The notes beneath the pieces were generated by a model. It was not told where the DNA came from and ran no database searches. It saw only the letters and a program-made list of their open reading frames with translations. A stretch of 10,178 nt of DNA from Candidatus Kaiserbacteria bacterium. GTDB taxonomy: Bacteria > Patescibacteriota > Minisyncoccia > Phycocordibacterales > UBA918. Where the stretch lies: assembly GCA_020428895.1 (NCBI GenBank), contig JAGQLZ010000044.1:1-10178 (forward strand), given 5' to 3'. Within the stretch, counting starts at the first letter, position 1, and each line of letters opens with the position of its first letter. A program made the translations under genes and the position numbers. This document shows, in pieces, positions 1,716 through 8,319 of this stretch.

Positions 1716-4037
1716 TTATAGTCCTGGCTCTTCTATACGCAATCCAACGTTTGAAACAGCTGATGGAGTATCAGATTCAATACGTTTTACTAACTCAAAA
1801 GTATGAGCGTCATACACTTCAATTTCATTAGCAGTTTGTGACACTATGTACACAAATTGTCCGTCAAGTGTAAATTCAGGATGCCATGAACTTTCCCCCG
1901 GAACTGGTTTGATAGTTTCAACAATTTTATTTATGCGAGCATCGATGACGTAAATTTCATCGTGGTTATCACCAAAAGCCGTATCAGCCCAAACATACGG
2001 ATAACTAGGATCATTAGGATATGAGCGAATGAATAGACCTGGACCACCGGTTTCAATGTAGGCTATTGGTTCCCAAGTGACAGTGTCTATTGCTGTAATA
2101 AGCCCTTCACCAATCGCTGGTACATAAGTGGTGGTACCCCAAGTTGCTCCTGGGCCGGTGTGTGGTGTGTCGCCAGTTTTAACTTCACCGACTTCTTCCC
2201 AAGTGTCTGTGTTAAGCACCCAGACTGTATTGGCTCCCATGGCAGCCACTAAATAGAATTTTCCGTCTGGTGTTAAGTAAGCGTCATGAAGTGGTGTCTG
2301 ATTCCCACCGATGTTCCAGTATTTTTCAGCTACTGGGAAAGTTTGGTCATCTCCATCTATAACCCATACGCTATTGAGATCTTTTAGGGCGATAATAAAA
2401 TCATTACCTTTTTCAACAACCGCACCGACTCGAGACTCAACTTCCACTCCATCAAGCGTACCGACCGTTGGGATAGTTTTTAAAATTTCTAAAGTATCAG
2501 CGTCCACTATTACAACATTACCCGGAGCATAGTTACCAATAGCTATGTACCTTCCGTTGTCTGAAATAGCCGTACCTCGTGAATTTTCACCAACCAGAAT
2601 AGTCTTAACCGGCTTAAAATTATTTAAATCAATTTTGGTAAACCAACCATCACGAGCAATTATGTACATATAACGAGCATCAGGTGAATACACAGAGGTA
2701 TGAGGTTGAAAACCAATATCATGAACTCGCCCTAATACTTCATGGGTTTTCCCATCAATAAAGATTAGTTTCTCAGCATCTTTTTCCACGATTACCATCA
2801 ACTCATGATTATCCCAGCTTCCTGCTTCGACATACAGTTCTTCGTAAGGTTTTAATTCTGATCGTTTGGCCGGTAAATTTTCATCAGGTAAAGTTACATT
2901 TTGATCATCAATTCGCCCAATATATAGACGCATCATTTTGTCACTTACTCCAGCACCGTGGTTCCGGTGGTAATTTTCACTAGCATCAGTACCACAATTG
3001 AAAGCCGCTGGATGTAGTTTTGATTCTGGAGTAGCGTCAAATACCATGTCATCAATGGTTAGCCAACAATCATCTTTTTTATTATGCGAAGCAACTTCAG
3101 TGACGCTAAAACCTAACGAACCAATGTGATAGGACTGAACGCGGTCGCTTATACCGTCAGGGCGCATCTCTAGATACGCTGTAGTAATATCAGTGCCACA
3201 CTGATAGAGATCAGGATATTTTTCTGCAGCCGGAGTGACGTTATAAACTTCACCACTAATAACCACCCAACAATCTTCGATGTGGCTATGACCACCAATT
3301 TCGTTCCAAGTAAAGGTAGCAAAACCAGTCTCATTCTCGACACTTGACTCGCTTGAGTTGACTGAATTTATAACTATTTGACTTGAGTCTTCAGAAAACG
3401 GACTTAGGAACAAACTTAAACCAAATGACGCAACACAAAATAATCCAACGATAACCAATAAAGCATTAATGCTTTGTCGAACATCTGTAAGTTGGAATTG
3501 TCGAGAAATGGCCAAATAAAAATATCCAAAAAATGCAATCGCTCCAAAGTAAAGAGCTAAAGCTAACCACATGCTTATCTCAAATCGGTAGAGCGCATGA
3601 TGAACAACTAAGAATAGCCACGATACAAATACAATAATCGTAGCGAAGACATAGTAAACGCCCACCACTGGTGTGTAGGTTTGTTTTTCATCAAGTACTA
3701 CCATTTTAGGTAATATCCAGTATTGGATAAAAAACTGTGTCATCACCAACACAGCAAAAATAATGGCGGCGGCCTTAAAGATACCGAGTTGCAACATGGC
3801 TTCATACGATAAAGTAAAAAGACCGACCCCAGAAATACTATAGAGGATTATACTTGTCCAACTTACTACTCTACCGTTTTTAATAATAGCTACTTCATCG
3901 TCTGATATTTTCTTATCACGCAAAATTGCCTGTAGCATTAGACTAGAAAACGCAGCCGAACCTAAACCAAGAGCCAAAGCCACTGAAAATACTATCAGAT
4001 ATATATCGTGCAAACTAAAAATTCCAAACAAGAGCAT
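1716..4037 (-). CDS. Membrane-anchored tandem cytochrome b5 / cytochrome d1-like propeller fusion protein
   Basis: This 773-residue protein has three parts. Residues 1-212 contain about six hydrophobic helices (roughly 11-34, 58-80, 84-108, 122-147, 153-177, 190-212); positive charges in the loops place the C-terminal part outside the cytoplasm. Residues about 239-308 and 310-376 are two cytochrome b5-like domains sharing DCW, V[YF][ND][VA]T and CGTD. The second keeps candidate haem ligands H342 (LHPAAF) and H360 (RNHGAG); the first has Y274 and no second His. Residues about 405-773 form an eight-bladed YVTN-type propeller that I align from memory to the haem d1 domain of NirS. H446 (FQPHTS) matches the proximal d1 ligand, and H584 (TPLHD) and H626 (TPHTGPGA) match the two active-site histidines. 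Blocks such as GGPGLFIRSYPN and SSWHPEF also match. Nitrite reduction, haem d1 handling (NirF/NirN-like) or another redox role are all possible. No c-type CXXCH site is present. Confidence 0.85.
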   Translation of the reverse strand: MLLFGIFSLHDIYLIVFSVALALGLGSAAFSSLMLQAILRDKKISDDEVAIIKNGRVVSWTSIILYSISGVGLFTLSYEAMLQLGIFKAAAIIFAVLVMTQFFIQYWILPKMVVLDEKQTYTPVVGVYYVFATIIVFVSWLFLVVHHALYRFEISMWLALALYFGAIAFFGYFYLAISRQFQLTDVRQSINALLVIVGLFCVASFGLSLFLSPFSEDSSQIVINSVNSSESSVENETGFATFTWNEIGGHSHIEDCWVVISGEVYNVTPAAEKYPDLYQCGTDITTAYLEMRPDGISDRVQSYHIGSLGFSVTEVASHNKKDDCWLTIDDMVFDATPESKLHPAAFNCGTDASENYHRNHGAGVSDKMMRLYIGRIDDQNVTLPDENLPAKRSELKPYEELYVEAGSWDNHELMVIVEKDAEKLIFIDGKTHEVLGRVHDIGFQPHTSVYSPDARYMYIIARDGWFTKIDLNNFKPVKTILVGENSRGTAISDNGRYIAIGNYAPGNVVIVDADTLEILKTIPTVGTLDGVEVESRVGAVVEKGNDFIIALKDLNSVWVIDGDDQTFPVAEKYWNIGGNQTPLHDAYLTPDGKFYLVAAMGANTVWVLNTDTWEEVGEVKTGDTPHTGPGATWGTTTYVPAIGEGLITAIDTVTWEPIAYIETGGPGLFIRSYPNDPSYPYVWADTAFGDNHDEIYVIDARINKIVETIKPVPGESSWHPEFTLDGQFVYIVSQTANEIEVYDAHTFELVKRIESDTPSAVSNVGLRIEEPGL

Positions 4038-4101: not shown

Positions 4102-5202
4102 TTACCGAAACCTTTCCTGAACATCTTCAACAATATGTAAAACGTGTCTTAGCGGTTCGGCAATTGTCATTATGTATGTTTGTAGTTCGTACCGATCTAG
4201 ATTTTTTACGGTTTTACCTAATTTTATATTGTCATTAGGAAATAACATGTACATATATTCACCGATGAAAGAAAACCGTATATTTATTTTTCTACCATTC
4301 CACCAATCATACAAATCATTCATAAACTCTGGTGTCAAAATATACCGTGCTTCAACTGGATTGGTTGAAGCGACATGTAATAGATCTTCAAAATCATTCC
4401 ATTCTAACTCAGTTTCTTGAGCCCCTTTATTATTTAAATCTTTCCAAAAAGAACGGTGTCCAAACCCTCGTTTATCACCTTCAGTAGATACAAAAGTTTT
4501 ACCTTCTAATTTTTTACCCAGTTCAAGTCGTACAAAGTAACCTTTAAAAATTTTCTTTTCACTCCGGTTTTTACCACTGCCGGTAACATGCCTAATATCC
4601 ATCTCTCCCACCAATAACTCCTTATCATTAACGCTTGCTTTAAACATATCATCAAGATTCATGGTGTTACGCGGTTCGGTAATCAATTCCGAAGCATCTA
4701 GGCCAGATGCAAGTTCAATTTGCTGTTTATTTTCTTGAGCTTTTTTAAATTTATTAAATAATTCAGACAAACCAACTTTATATATTTCAATCTTTTCATC
4801 AGCTAAAAACTGAGTTGAACGATACTCACCGGTTATGCCAAATAAAGAAAAGGTTTCAGAAAATACTACTTGATTAAGTTTTTGATTAAAATCGGTAATA
4901 ATTTTCATTGTTTCAAGGTAAACTCTGAAAAACTTACTAACTAGAAAAATAATAAGAACAATTACTCCAAATATAATCAAATGTGCATATTGGACAAAAA
5001 TTATTTCTGTAAAACCTAAGCCGAAAATAAATATAACGGTTAAAATTGAGAACAGTAGATTTCGTTTTCTAACCGCTTTAACGTAACTGTCCTCTAGATA
5101 ACCAACCTGACTTCTAATTTGGGTATTTATATCAAACCAAGTCTCATTTAGTCTTTGTTCTAAAGATTCTTTACTAGGAAATTTTTTTTTAAAAACATTC
5201 AT
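4102..5202 (-). CDS. DUF3137 family membrane protein
   Basis: The 366-residue protein has a charged cytoplasmic-type N-terminus (1-47), two adjacent membrane helices (about 48-70 and 73-94) and a long soluble C-terminal region. The C-terminal part carries blocks I associate with DUF3137: IFKGYFVRLELGKKLEGKTFV (split as 218-227 and 228-238) and PVEARYILTPEFMNDLYDW (282-300), then a strand-rich stretch and a helical end. The biochemical function of the family is unknown. Genes of this family are often found beside lemA, which supports both the assignment and a role in an envelope unit. Its ATG is only 2 nt downstream of the htpX stop, so translation is probably coupled; the nearest purine-rich stretch (GGGACAAG) lies inside the htpX coding end and is too far away to be a convincing ribosome binding site. 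The gene is followed by 64 nt before the membrane haem protein. Confidence 0.8.
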   Translation of the reverse strand: MNVFKKKFPSKESLEQRLNETWFDINTQIRSQVGYLEDSYVKAVRKRNLLFSILTVIFIFGLGFTEIIFVQYAHLIIFGVIVLIIFLVSKFFRVYLETMKIITDFNQKLNQVVFSETFSLFGITGEYRSTQFLADEKIEIYKVGLSELFNKFKKAQENKQQIELASGLDASELITEPRNTMNLDDMFKASVNDKELLVGEMDIRHVTGSGKNRSEKKIFKGYFVRLELGKKLEGKTFVSTEGDKRGFGHRSFWKDLNNKGAQETELEWNDFEDLLHVASTNPVEARYILTPEFMNDLYDWWNGRKINIRFSFIGEYMYMLFPNDNIKLGKTVKNLDRYELQTYIMTIAEPLRHVLHIVEDVQERFR

Positions 5203-5204
5203 TA

Positions 5205-6104
5205 TTAAACTTGTCCCATACTACGTAAACGTGAAATACGGTCTTCAGCTGGTGGATGAGTGTGGAATAAACTATAAGCTTTTTGAATAAAGCCACGTTT
5301 ACCTCGACCGTACGGATCAGCAATAAACAAATGAGCCGTAGCATGACTGGTACGTTTCATTGGGATATTATGACTCGAAATCTTCTCAAGAGCTGAAGCT
5401 AAACCTTCTGGATATCTGGTAGTTAAAGCTCCAGTTGCATCAGCTAGATACTCTCGCTTACGAGATACTGCTAATTGTATCAATTTGGCGGCTATCGGTG
5501 CCAGAATTATTCCTACGATTGCCAATATCAAAAACGCTGGATGACGGTCGCGGTTGTTTCCCCCGCCGTATAATAATGAACGACTAAAAATGTCGGCCAG
5601 CATCGCTACGCAACCAGCTAAAACAACCGCGACCGTCATCACCAACATGTCTCGGTTACCAATATGAGCCATCTCATGAGCCACTACACCTTCCAACTCT
5701 GAACGATCAAGAATCTGCATTAAACCAGTAGTAACTGCCACGACCGCATGTTTTGGATCACGACCAGTAGCAAAGGCGTTAGGAGCTGGATCGTCTACTA
5801 CATAAACCTTAGGCATTGGTAAACCAGTTGTAATCGCTAAGTTCTCAACTATGTTATATAGTTCTGGAGCTTCTTCCTTCGCTATTGGTTTAGCATTGGT
5901 CATCCGCAAAACGATCTTATCTGAATACCAGAAACTTGTGACATTCATTACTAACGCAAAAATTAGGGCGACGTAAAGAAAAATAAAGCTACCGGAAAAC
6001 CAACTAACCGCATACCCAAGTGCAATTACTACTACTAAAAATACACCCATTAAAAACCAGGTTTTTCGAATATTACTTGACTGTTGTGTATATAGAGTGG
6101 CCAT
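5205..6104 (-). CDS. htpX: HtpX-type membrane zinc metalloprotease (M48B)
   Basis: HtpX is a membrane-bound zinc endopeptidase that degrades misfolded membrane proteins. This 299-residue copy has the usual length. Two membrane helices lie near the N-terminus (about 16-34 and 38-57). The catalytic HEXXH motif is HEMAH at 143-147, with the zinc ligands H143 and H147 and the catalytic E144. A third ligand, E218, sits in SRKREYLADATGA (214-226), the typical HtpX block. Hydrophobic segments near 155-172 and 191-212 flank the catalytic region. The C-terminus ends with FHTHPPAEDRISRLR, typical of the family. All catalytic residues are present, so it should be active. It lies 11 nt after the pyrophosphohydrolase stop, with no clear Shine-Dalgarno sequence, and 2 nt before the DUF3137 gene. 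The lemA/htpX pairing is common in bacteria. Confidence 0.95.
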   Translation of the reverse strand: MATLYTQQSSNIRKTWFLMGVFLVVVIALGYAVSWFSGSFIFLYVALIFALVMNVTSFWYSDKIVLRMTNAKPIAKEEAPELYNIVENLAITTGLPMPKVYVVDDPAPNAFATGRDPKHAVVAVTTGLMQILDRSELEGVVAHEMAHIGNRDMLVMTVAVVLAGCVAMLADIFSRSLLYGGGNNRDRHPAFLILAIVGIILAPIAAKLIQLAVSRKREYLADATGALTTRYPEGLASALEKISSHNIPMKRTSHATAHLFIADPYGRGKRGFIQKAYSLFHTHPPAEDRISRLRSMGQV

Positions 6105-6115
6105 TTATACCAAGT

Positions 6116-6499
6116 CTAAAGTGGAATACCTTGTGGGGTTTCTTCAGTTTTGTAATCTACATCTTCACTCCATACTAAGAAGTGTTTATGATCATACTTA
6201 CCTTTCTTAAGACGGTTTTCGGCTCGAGCTTCTTTCACTTTCTCGTGAGGTATCTCTAGTTGATCAATAATAGTTTCTAAAACCATCATCAAATCACAGT
6301 ACTCGTTTAAGAAATCTTCAGCGCTTCTAGCCATCGATACTGCATGCGCTTCTTCTCTAACCTTCTTAAATAACTCCTGTTGGAATTCTTGAGCATCAGT
6401 AATTGGCCTAACTTCAAAGTTTTCTCCTTTAGCCTTTATCTTATCTGGTACGTTATCTCGAATCAGCTTGTTGTAATATACGCGTGAAATCTTAGCCAT
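6116..6499 (-). CDS. MazG-superfamily house-cleaning NTP pyrophosphohydrolase (COG4997-like)
   Basis: This 127-residue all-alpha protein opens with YYNKLIRDNVPDKIKAKG (8-25), the hallmark of small predicted nucleoside triphosphate pyrophosphatases often mislabelled phosphoribosyl-ATP pyrophosphohydrolase. Such enzymes hydrolyse non-canonical NTPs to NMP and pyrophosphate with Mg2+. The metal-binding signature EExxE...ExxD is partly present: E49-E50 and E66/D69 (EYCDLMMVLE) are there, but position 53 is Ala where the third Glu is expected. The C-terminal KKGKYDHKHFLVW (98-110) also fits the family. The gene lies between lemA (9 nt upstream) and htpX (11 nt downstream), so it is almost certainly in the same transcript, although nucleotide clean-up is not obviously linked to membrane proteolysis. 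There is no Shine-Dalgarno sequence ahead of the ATG. A histidine-biosynthesis role (HisE) is unlikely because no other his genes are nearby and the N-terminal motif differs. Confidence 0.82.
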   Translation of the reverse strand: MAKISRVYYNKLIRDNVPDKIKAKGENFEVRPITDAQEFQQELFKKVREEAHAVSMARSAEDFLNEYCDLMMVLETIIDQLEIPHEKVKEARAENRLKKGKYDHKHFLVWSEDVDYKTEETPQGIPL

Positions 6500-6508
6500 A
6501 ATTATTAA

Positions 6509-7090
6509 TTAAAAGTCTACTTTTACGTTTTCACGTTCCTGACTATTTTCGTCAATTTCAAAATACTGTTGTTCCTTGAAACCAAACATATTTCCAATAA
6601 TATTTGACGGAAAACTCTGTAATGCAATTGCTAAATCACGAACGTTAGTGTTGTAAAAACGTCTAGCAGCTTGGATTTTATTTTCTGTATCAGAAAGTTC
6701 TGTTTGCAACTGACTAAAATTCTGATTAGCTTTAAGATCCGGATAAGCTTCGGCTACTGCTAACAATTTACCGAGGGCACCAGTTAGAGCATTTTCTGCA
6801 CCAGCCATAGCGGCAATCTGATCTGGGGTAATGTTACTAGGATCAACATGTACTTGCGTAGCAGCTGCTCGAGCACTAGTAACGTTATCAAAAGTCTCTT
6901 TTTCGTGTGAAGCATAACCTTTAACTGTTTCAACTAGATTAGGAATCAAGTCGTAACGTCGTTTCAGTTGTACATCAATATCCGCCCATGCTTCTTTGGC
7001 ACGTTGTACCAACTTAACAAATTTATTGTAAGTAACGATGGCGTAAAATGCCAAGACCGCTACTACTCCTAATGTAATCCACAAACCCAT
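6509..7090 (-). CDS. lemA: LemA family membrane protein
   Basis: LemA proteins have one N-terminal membrane helix and a helical-bundle domain; their molecular role is unknown, though they recur next to membrane proteases such as HtpX. This 193-residue copy has the usual length. The helix spans about residues 3-20. It is followed by the family signature RRYDLIPNLVETVKGYASHE (44-63), then AVAEAYPDLKAN (111-122), and the block with FSQLQTELSDTENKI (125-139) and ARRFYNTNVRD (141-151). It is the first gene of a minus-strand run with pyrophosphohydrolase, htpX and DUF3137 genes, separated from the first by 9 nt. No Shine-Dalgarno sequence precedes the ATG; the leader is purely AT-rich. The likely promoter lies in the divergent region up to 7167. 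Confidence 0.95.
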   Translation of the reverse strand: MGLWITLGVVAVLAFYAIVTYNKFVKLVQRAKEAWADIDVQLKRRYDLIPNLVETVKGYASHEKETFDNVTSARAAATQVHVDPSNITPDQIAAMAGAENALTGALGKLLAVAEAYPDLKANQNFSQLQTELSDTENKIQAARRFYNTNVRDLAIALQSFPSNIIGNMFGFKEQQYFEIDENSQERENVKVDF

Positions 7091-7222: not shown

Positions 7223-7229
7223 AAAGGTG
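7223..7229 (+). promoter_or_regulatory. Ribosome binding site deciding the HD-gene start
   Basis: AAAGGTG at 7223-7229 lies 6 nt before the ATG at 7236, ideal Shine-Dalgarno spacing. An upstream in-frame GTG at 7227 overlaps this element and has no Shine-Dalgarno of its own, so the ATG is the better start. Confidence 0.75.
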
Positions 7230-7235
7230 TCGAAA

Positions 7236-7958
7236 ATGCGTAAACTAGCAAAGATTGACAGCTACAGCATGTTCGCAAACATGATTGATGAAACATTTGC
7301 TGAACTATTCGGTATTAACATATCCGAACTTCAGGATCATCATCAATATCAGAAAATAAAAACTTACCTGCTCAATAGTTACACGGAGCATTTCCGTGTC
7401 TATCATGCTTGTCAGCACCCAGTCTATATGATACTGAAGCTCTACGAGCTACTGGAAGACCACCCTGATCTTTCAGAAAAGGTTAATCTTCTCGCTTTGA
7501 AGTTAATGATTATTTACCACGATGTCATTTTCAAGCTAATGAGAGAGCTAGGTTGGAGCGAGAAAAAATCAGCCGAAAAAGCTTTTAGAGATATTCATCT
7601 CACATTGAGAATGCCGGCTAAGTTTGCTGATATTGTGCAAACTGGCATCCTTGCTACCGCTAGGCATAAAATGCCCCTTAAAACAAATGATCTCAACCCT
7701 ATATCGAGAAGAACCATCGCTCTGCTACTTGACCTTGATCTAATGGGATTTGGCAACTCATGGTCTAAGTTTAAGGAAGATACAAAGGACAATTGGTGCG
7801 AGTGGCAGTCAATAAAAACTGAACAGGAGTTCCATAAAAATCGTGGAGTTTGGGCAAGGAAGTTTCTCAAAGATCACCTCAAAATCTACAACACCGAGTA
7901 CTTCGCCAACAAAGAAGAACAAGCCCAGAAAAACTTGTCTAGATTGGCAAAGATATAA
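7236..7958 (+). CDS. HD-superfamily metal-dependent phosphohydrolase (COG4339-like)
   Basis: From the ATG chosen by the ribosome binding site the protein is 240 residues; a GTG three codons upstream is the alternative. The pattern fits predicted metal-dependent HD phosphohydrolases of the COG4339 type. It has YHxxxH (H57 and H61), IIYHD with the metal-binding H95-D96, SEKKSAEKAF (108-117) in the position where the family has an NE..SA helix, ATARH ending at H144, and LLLDLDLMGFG with D166 and D168 in the place of the usual LDADL(x)ILG. The late F..NRGVWARKFL block and the helix ending EEQAQKNLSRL also match. Substrate is unknown; relatives hydrolyse nucleotides or phosphoesters. The protein looks soluble. 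The gene diverges from lemA and is followed 8 nt after its stop by a GC-rich hairpin. It has a strong Shine-Dalgarno sequence, unlike most of its minus-strand neighbours. Confidence 0.75.
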   Translation: MRKLAKIDSYSMFANMIDETFAELFGINISELQDHHQYQKIKTYLLNSYTEHFRVYHACQHPVYMILKLYELLEDHPDLSEKVNLLALKLMIIYHDVIFKLMRELGWSEKKSAEKAFRDIHLTLRMPAKFADIVQTGILATARHKMPLKTNDLNPISRRTIALLLDLDLMGFGNSWSKFKEDTKDNWCEWQSIKTEQEFHKNRGVWARKFLKDHLKIYNTEYFANKEEQAQKNLSRLAKI

Positions 7959-8049: not shown

Positions 8050-8319
8050 ATGAAATATAAACCTTTTGGAAAACTCAAAGTTGGTGAATGTTTTATAAAT
8101 TCATTTGGTATTTATGTCCATAAAAAATGTAACAATTTTGAAATAAACGGAACCGTTTATAATGCTTGTCGACTTGAGAGAAGTATAAAGGGAGAGACTA
8201 TTGAAGTTCCGGTATTTTTCCGCAATGATGCGTTGGTTGGTCTGGGTATATCAAATGAATCTCTTGATGACAACCAAGAAAATACCGTTATTTACCCAGC
8301 TGTGTGGCATAAAGGTTAA
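8050..8319 (+). CDS. Small hypothetical protein, 89 residues
   Basis: I do not recognise a family with confidence. The protein is soluble, with no signal peptide or membrane helix. It looks strand-rich, starting with PFGKLKVGECFINSFGIYV (5-23), a pattern of F.xLxxGexF seen in small beta-rich proteins of unknown role. It has three cysteines (14, 27 and 40), not arranged as an obvious metal site, and a tail with aromatic residues (IYPAVWHKG). Coding is supported by the AAGGAG site 7 nt upstream, an undisturbed frame and a tight fit between two hairpins. No clear promoter lies in the 61 nt after the first hairpin; TTGCGT (7995-8000) with TAAGTT (8018-8023) is weak. It may be expressed by read-through from the HD-domain gene. 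It converges with groEL. Confidence 0.7.
   Translation: MKYKPFGKLKVGECFINSFGIYVHKKCNNFEINGTVYNACRLERSIKGETIEVPVFFRNDALVGLGISNESLDDNQENTVIYPAVWHKG

Follow-up and report, generated by a model that had tools for sequence, protein, structure and literature searches.

A conserved protein family in CPR bacteria that joins a membrane module and cytochrome b5 to a haem d1-type propeller: a candidate nitrite reductase

To our knowledge, haem d1 enzymes have been associated with cytochrome c as donor and with hosts that make the cofactor themselves. What, then, is encoded by a gene from a Candidatus Kaiserbacteria bacterium that places a membrane anchor and cytochrome b5 domains ahead of a d1-type propeller? 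The gene lies in the 10,178-nucleotide stretch of DNA analyzed here (the window), and the reading that we favor, with a probability of roughly 0.55, is that it encodes a NirS-like nitrite reductase, tethered to the membrane and facing outward, with cytochrome b5 in the role of cytochrome c.

An initial annotation of the locus had described one uninterrupted frame encoding about six membrane helices, two b5-like domains and a propeller. The frame was borne out at exactly these coordinates (Table 1): translation of the minus strand contains no internal stop, whereas the plus strand of the same interval contains 49. Pfam searches placed Cytochrom_D1 at E 4.5e-77 (259.5 bits vs a cut-off of 25.5) and Cyt-b5 on two stretches (E 1.4e-16). 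The annotation had proposed a structure prediction of the whole chain; AlphaFold2, given a 64-row alignment, returned six long helices, two b5-fold units and then the propeller (mean pLDDT 87), with the six helices at residues 9-41, 46-76, 85-112, 123-148, 156-178 and 184-211, in agreement with the helix count first claimed. The 64 rows are the window protein and 63 of 120 listed relatives (51-75% identical), picked for length and spread, with fragments left out. Altogether, 405 relatives at E<=1e-3 were found among the 7996 candidates scored, so this architecture is not a chance product.

Table 1. Features of the b5-d1 gene and its neighbor, in window coordinates
Feature	Position	Strand	Remarks
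Whole gene, 6TM - b5 (haem-less) - b5 (haem) - d1 propeller	1716..4037	minus	773 aa + stop
Membrane module, six helices, residues 9-211	3405..4013	minus	models; pLDDT 91 modelled alone
H10	4008-4010	minus	predicted outer end of helix 1
H146/H147	3597-3602	minus	predicted outer end of helix 4
First b5-fold domain, residues 240-308	3114..3320	minus	no haem histidines; Cys256/Cys280
Second b5 domain, residues 309-377	2907..3113	minus	haem ligands H342/H360; Cys324/Cys348
H342 codon	3012-3014	minus	b5 axial haem ligand
H360 codon	2958-2960	minus	b5 axial haem ligand
Haem d1-type eight-bladed propeller, residues 408-764	1746..2816	minus	Pfam + fold searches
H446, proximal d1-iron ligand (P. aeruginosa NirS His182)	2700..2702	minus	alignment; 138/138 rows
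H584, distal catalytic His (NirS His327)	2286..2288	minus	138/138 rows
H626, distal catalytic His (NirS His369)	2160..2162	minus	138/138 rows
FAD-linked 2-hydroxyacid dehydrogenase-like gene (GlcD/D-lactate/YdiJ type), 555 aa	35..1702	minus	13 nt after b5-d1 stop

The host genome is a 0.67 Mb bin of 105 contigs, 79.9% complete. Misbinning of the window was considered and rejected: GroEL is 81-86% identical to that of five same-genus genomes and 75-76% identical to that of two same-family genomes. It is also 85-87% identical to GroEL of the genomes of loci L031 and L032, and thus shows lineage, not genus. Upstream of the b5-d1 gene and on the same strand (window 4102-7090, minus) lie a DUF3137 gene, an M48 peptidase, a 127-aa gene and LemA. 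Of these, LemA and M48 also have relatives 5-9 kb from the b5-d1 gene of locus L036. Two plus-strand ORFs of 243 and 89 aa (7227-7958 and 8050-8319) have no Pfam match over cut-off.

The two b5-like domains of the initial annotation stand as folds, but haem histidines are present in the second only, where H342, H360, Cys324 and Cys348 are aligned in 64/64 rows. Among the 45 rows that have the first domain, the first ligand place (274) is Tyr or Phe and the other (292) is Thr in 15, Arg in 14, Lys in 5, Val in 5 and another residue in 6, with His in none of the 45 at either place; the only conserved His of this domain, H250 (44/45 rows), lies away from the ligand places. The domain is missing from the remaining 19 of the 64 rows. 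Many members thus have one haem b5 and a haem-less copy, and haem binding, as judged by ligands, is predicted for one b5 domain, not two. The second domain keeps both haem histidines of cytochrome b5 and flavocytochrome b2, and here too a flavin 2-hydroxyacid dehydrogenase-like gene adjoins; unlike in those proteins, the b5 domain is predicted to lie outside the membrane and has a conserved Cys pair, and, unlike in flavocytochrome b2, the flavin enzyme is encoded by its own gene and is of the FAD type (GlcD-like).

Assignment of the propeller was to be settled by scoring it against generic propellers, and d1 proteins score far better by both sequence and fold; a generic YVTN/lactonase propeller, with much lower scores on both counts, is ruled out. 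R462 (= NirS Arg198) and R487 are, like the three site histidines, invariant (138/138 rows). Of the d1-carboxylate arginines of NirS (Arg156, Arg198 and Arg372), however, only Arg198 is kept: Arg372 is replaced by Pro629 in 137/138 rows and Arg156 by Lys419 in 133/138, which counts against a nitrite reductase. CXXCH is absent (Cys occurs only at 201, 256, 280, 324 and 348), and no cytochrome c or cupredoxin family matches the window protein in Pfam at E<=1. L-NosZ, the clade III nitrous-oxide reductase, was also rejected, by its NCBIfam score (55.9 bits vs a cut-off of 700, over few repeats).

Could the protein be a redox-dead relic, or a scaffold whose YVTN-like propeller serves binding or adhesion? 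The patchy distribution of the family and the haem-less first b5 domain would permit partial decay, but the invariance of the b5 ligands across 64 rows and of the d1-site ligands across 138, together with the much lower scores of generic propellers, make this the least probable of the readings considered, and a very remote one.

A role in haem d1 biosynthesis or handling, of the NirF/NirN type and with b5 replacing NirC or cytochrome c, is suggested by pairwise scores: the best single-sequence PDB matches are to NirN (208 bits) and NirF (161 bits), while NirS scores lower at 77 bits, a ranking that also speaks against a nitrite reductase, and several relatives are labelled 'protein NirF' by JGI. 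The window protein shares a d1-type propeller with NirN and NirF. Yet the place of NirS His327 is Asp in the two NirN and Tyr in the two NirF compared, whereas the window family has His there in every row. NirN and NirF also belong to the d1 pathway, whose tested genes were not found in these genomes (NirJ and CobA gave no match in the window's own), and they group separately in a tree of d1 proteins. We therefore regard this role as very unlikely. In that tree (FastTree, 267 rows; the root was set arbitrarily at NirF, and the sequences included depend on two relative searches), the window family forms one clade with support 1.0, apart from NirN and NirF; its neighbors are P0164, which is of the cupredoxin type, and L003, a d1 protein from CPR whose N-terminus is different. 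The next group holds cupredoxin/cytochrome c-d1 proteins together with NirS; few of the former carry organism names, and those are mostly Chloroflexi.

These nearest relatives outside CPR have cupredoxin and/or cytochrome c ahead of the same propeller. The initial annotation's view that b5 replaces cytochrome c as donor fits this pattern, albeit with one haem-ligand b5 domain rather than two, and its overall interpretation is supported. Given the position of the cupredoxin/cytochrome c-d1 group in the tree, the new step is the replacement of a cytochrome c or cupredoxin donor by b5. Excerpts of Schwartz et al. 2022 (PMC8756737) describe the Chloroflexi C1-C2-NirS form; this and related proteins resemble the window protein in the kind of propeller, the exchangeable N-terminal electron modules and the retained His327 equivalent, and differ in that their donor is cytochrome c and/or cupredoxin. 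The window protein shares with NirS of Pseudomonas and Paracoccus the d1 propeller fold and the equivalents of His182, His327, His369 and Arg198. It differs in having b5 and a six-helix anchor in place of the cytochrome c domain, in being membrane-bound by prediction where NirS is soluble and periplasmic, in its two lost arginines, and in a host where the tested nir synthesis genes were not found: it is NirS-like, yet not a NirS. The initial annotation knew of no described protein with the order 6TM-b5-b5-d1, and the portions of the literature covered by our search (subscription papers and preprints fell outside its scope) contain neither this architecture nor a description of a b5-d1 protein.

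How is the propeller held, and on which side of the membrane? Mean Lys+Arg counts over 64 rows alternate along the membrane module (0.02 at the N-terminus, then 4.47, 0.06, 3.22, 0.97 and 3.16 for the successive loops, and 2.17 in the 32 residues past helix 6). By the positive-inside rule, this pattern predicts an N-terminus outside, six crossings, and b5 and d1 outside, where the initial annotation had placed a tethered d1-like center. H147 is present in 61/64 rows, 60 of which also have H10 (the other has a gap); where 147 is Gly (three rows), a His sits two turns deeper, at place 17, and one of these rows has H10 as well. Relatives of the membrane module carry a His at the corresponding place too (by eye). 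The paired outer-face histidines H10/H147 look like a putative binding site for haem, metal or quinol. Fold searches with the six-helix module alone returned no significant PDB match, an absence that excludes no identity, cytochrome b561 and other haem-b membrane proteins included, but makes quinol oxidation a guess and weighs against our reading; its relatives have sub-cut-off Pfam matches to CopD and DUF2214.

The same module occurs in other settings. It stands alone as proteins of 185-190 aa (L004, L005, L012, L014, L015 and L027), follows a VKOR-like domain in L008 (Pfam, E 5.8e-21), L011 and L017 (both by eye), and precedes a second kind of propeller in L100:1803-3995, L101:1918-4044 and L102:2580-4697. 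VKOR proteins are disulfide-forming and quinone-linked. L100 also has a His-rich cupredoxin-like stretch, and its next-but-one gene is multicopper-oxidase-like with a CuA-like stretch (both by eye). Conversely, a short b5-d1 form of 513-516 aa without the six-helix module is found in four genomes. In three of these (L002/L047, L043 and L044, not L042), a DoxX-like membrane gene, of a type that we take to be linked to quinone, lies just upstream (E 0.0012-0.011, below cut-off).

The 18 named loci matching the family profile bear the labels Kaiserbacteria, Elulimicrobium, Wolfebacteria, Azambacteria, Yonathbacteria, Nomurabacteria, Paceibacterota, Patescibacteria or Parcubacteria, apart from one labelled 'bacterium' and an archaeal locus (Thermofilaceae) that is more distant. 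Among 297 genomes of the order, 86 have some match at E<=1e-3, but E<1e-100 is reached in just three: the window's genome, G206 (b5-d1) and G157, where two copies of d1 lack b5. Matches in the other genomes are weak, and most involve only b5 or the membrane module. Five same-genus and two same-family genomes gave no match to the family. Such a patchy distribution suggests that the b5-d1 family has probably moved laterally. The archaeal locus (L046:1442-5517) encodes a d1 propeller with an N-terminal cupredoxin resembling the CuA end of L-NosZ (136 bits, cut-off 700), and its next-but-one gene is a COX2-like/NapH-like membrane protein; archaeal d1 respiration is possible.

The gene downstream of b5-d1, with FAD_binding_4 and FAD-oxidase_C domains (Pfam; NCBIfam matches are all below cut-off), is a candidate electron source. 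It adjoins b5-d1, on either side, in 4/21 loci; among the 21, L002 and L047 probably represent a single genome, and several loci stop at contig ends. At E<=1e-30 it occurs in 15/19 distinct d1-bearing genomes (16/20 rows, best E<=2.2e-95 each; G206 and G313 share coordinates) vs 146/297 order genomes (p 0.016). Its frequency where b5-d1 is missing tells against the nitrite reductase reading, as do 20 further FAD loci, 19 from the order sample and one from a b5-d1 genome, where inspection of 4.5 kb turned up no NirK and no b5-d1. The idea that the FAD gene is dedicated to NirK or b5-d1 was therefore dropped; in general it is not.

In a same-genus genome without b5-d1 (G231), however, NirK (TIGR02376, 316.5 bits vs a cut-off of 296.3; membrane-like N-terminus by eye) is found two genes away from the FAD gene (69% identical). 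Gene order there is a 152-aa gene, NirK, two genes, FAD, a ribosomal protein L10-like gene (by eye) and a 208-aa gene; in L031 it is a 158-aa gene, FAD, b5-d1, L10-like and a 211-aa gene, and in L034 a 156-aa gene, FAD, b5-d1 and the contig end. These matching flanks indicate a single locus that carries either NirK or b5-d1, although each lies on a different side of the FAD gene. NirK over cut-off lies <1 kb from a FAD homolog in 4/17 order genomes with NirK (G231, G055, G206 and G237; the last three are one genus, and the G313/G206 locus was inspected directly, the others by coordinates). NirK over cut-off is also found in 7/18 b5-d1 CPR genomes (in one, L045, the copy is cut by a contig end, with the b5 part unseen) vs 16/294 order genomes (the 297, 17 of them with NirK, minus G000, G206 and G157; Fisher p 9e-5), a comparison of two genome sets drawn differently that ignores shared ancestry, which detracts from it as support. 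The window's own genome, 79.9% complete, has no NirK match, a further point against. The six-helix module is fused to a NirK-type enzyme with a C-terminal cupredoxin-like stretch in G236 (L099:602-2653; TIGR02376, 240 bits, below cut-off), and in G157 a 313-aa NirK-like ORF, in which an unusual insertion was seen by eye, begins 26 nt after the gene for a d1 protein that lacks b5 (L095:1038-3619). Genomic context thus points to nitrite. CPR NirK, treated in excerpts of Danczak et al. 2017 (PMC5581439), is a copper enzyme whose fold is unrelated to the window protein; the likeness lies in the locus, shared in the same-genus genome where NirK has this FAD gene at its side, and in the one NirK-type enzyme that has the window's six-helix module. 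Sections of CPR metabolism papers describe nirK (PMC5581439, PMC12239599, PMC9530719 and PMC8672522), nirK and nirS by annotation in Saccharimonadia (PMC12577380), a respiratory Parcubacterium (PMC5220378), and cytochrome b5 among Absconditabacteria electron carriers (PMC8080830).

Where would the cofactors come from? NirJ over cut-off was found in 0/21 genomes (20 CPR and one archaeon; plasmid controls 2/2 positive; radical-SAM sub-cut-off matches in 6 genomes), URO-D in 0/20 CPR genomes (control genomes 8/14 positive), and CobA over cut-off in 0/19 CPR and 0/1 archaeal genomes (plasmid controls 2/2; weak sub-cut-off matches in 6 CPR genomes). COX1 was likewise found in 0/20 CPR genomes (controls 8/14). 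G206 and G313 are counted twice where both were searched (NirJ, URO-D and COX1). The same absence across the genome set makes assembly loss from the 79.9% bin unlikely. Genes for haem biosynthesis and complex IV are mentioned for some groundwater CPR in PMC12577380, so the absence may not extend to all CPR. This leaves two options: uptake of haem and d1 from other cells, or a pocket with different contents.

The second option, in which haem b, another scavenged tetrapyrrole or copper brings new chemistry to an old fold, draws on the same missing synthesis genes, which also count against a nitrite reductase, and on the replacement of Arg372 and Arg156. It is quite unlikely, given the five invariant site residues and the fact that the two NirN compared also lack both arginines, yet NirN binds dihydro-haem d1 (PDB entry title). 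We likewise think it unlikely, if somewhat less so, that the protein binds a tetrapyrrole but uses electrons from b5 to reduce O2, NO or hydroxylamine, as an oxygen-scavenging terminal enzyme might. Its catalytic site is that of NirS, and cytochrome cd1 also reduces O2 and hydroxylamine; the COX1 search revealed no other such oxidase. The context, however, is that of a nitrite reductase, NirK, not of an oxidase. For the nitrite reductase reading, the lack of a haem-copper NO/O2 reductase in the 20 CPR genomes searched for COX1 is a difficulty, since the NO product would be left.

The favored reading, a b5-driven nitrite reductase, builds on computed domain content, d1 fold, conserved ligands, predicted topology, missing tested synthesis genes and NirK context; from these we infer a quinol or flavin donor, d1 itself as cofactor, nitrite as substrate, and scavenging. 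Quinol, probably reduced by a membrane-associated flavin dehydrogenase such as the product of the neighboring gene, would supply electrons, which would enter via the six-helix module, reach the second b5 domain's haem and move on to a tetrapyrrole, most likely haem d1, on H446 of the propeller. H584 and H626 would hold and protonate nitrite, yielding NO outside the cell, as an electron sink or for detoxification. Since the host seems to lack synthesis of both haem and d1, the cofactors would be scavenged from neighboring cells.

More broadly, it is possible, though we offer this only tentatively, that CPR bacteria which make neither haem nor d1 respire nitrite through a minimal chain tethered to the membrane, consisting of a flavin dehydrogenase or quinol, the six-helix module, cytochrome b5 and haem d1, with all cofactors obtained from neighboring cells. 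If true, this would be a 'cytochrome bd1' nitrite reductase, and haem d1 would be a shared good in microbial communities. The b5-d1 family is a candidate terminal reductase for supposedly fermentative CPR cells and suggests a putative nitrite-to-NO activity in groundwater; its presence in CPR that lack the tested haem and d1 genes makes cofactor scavenging directly testable.
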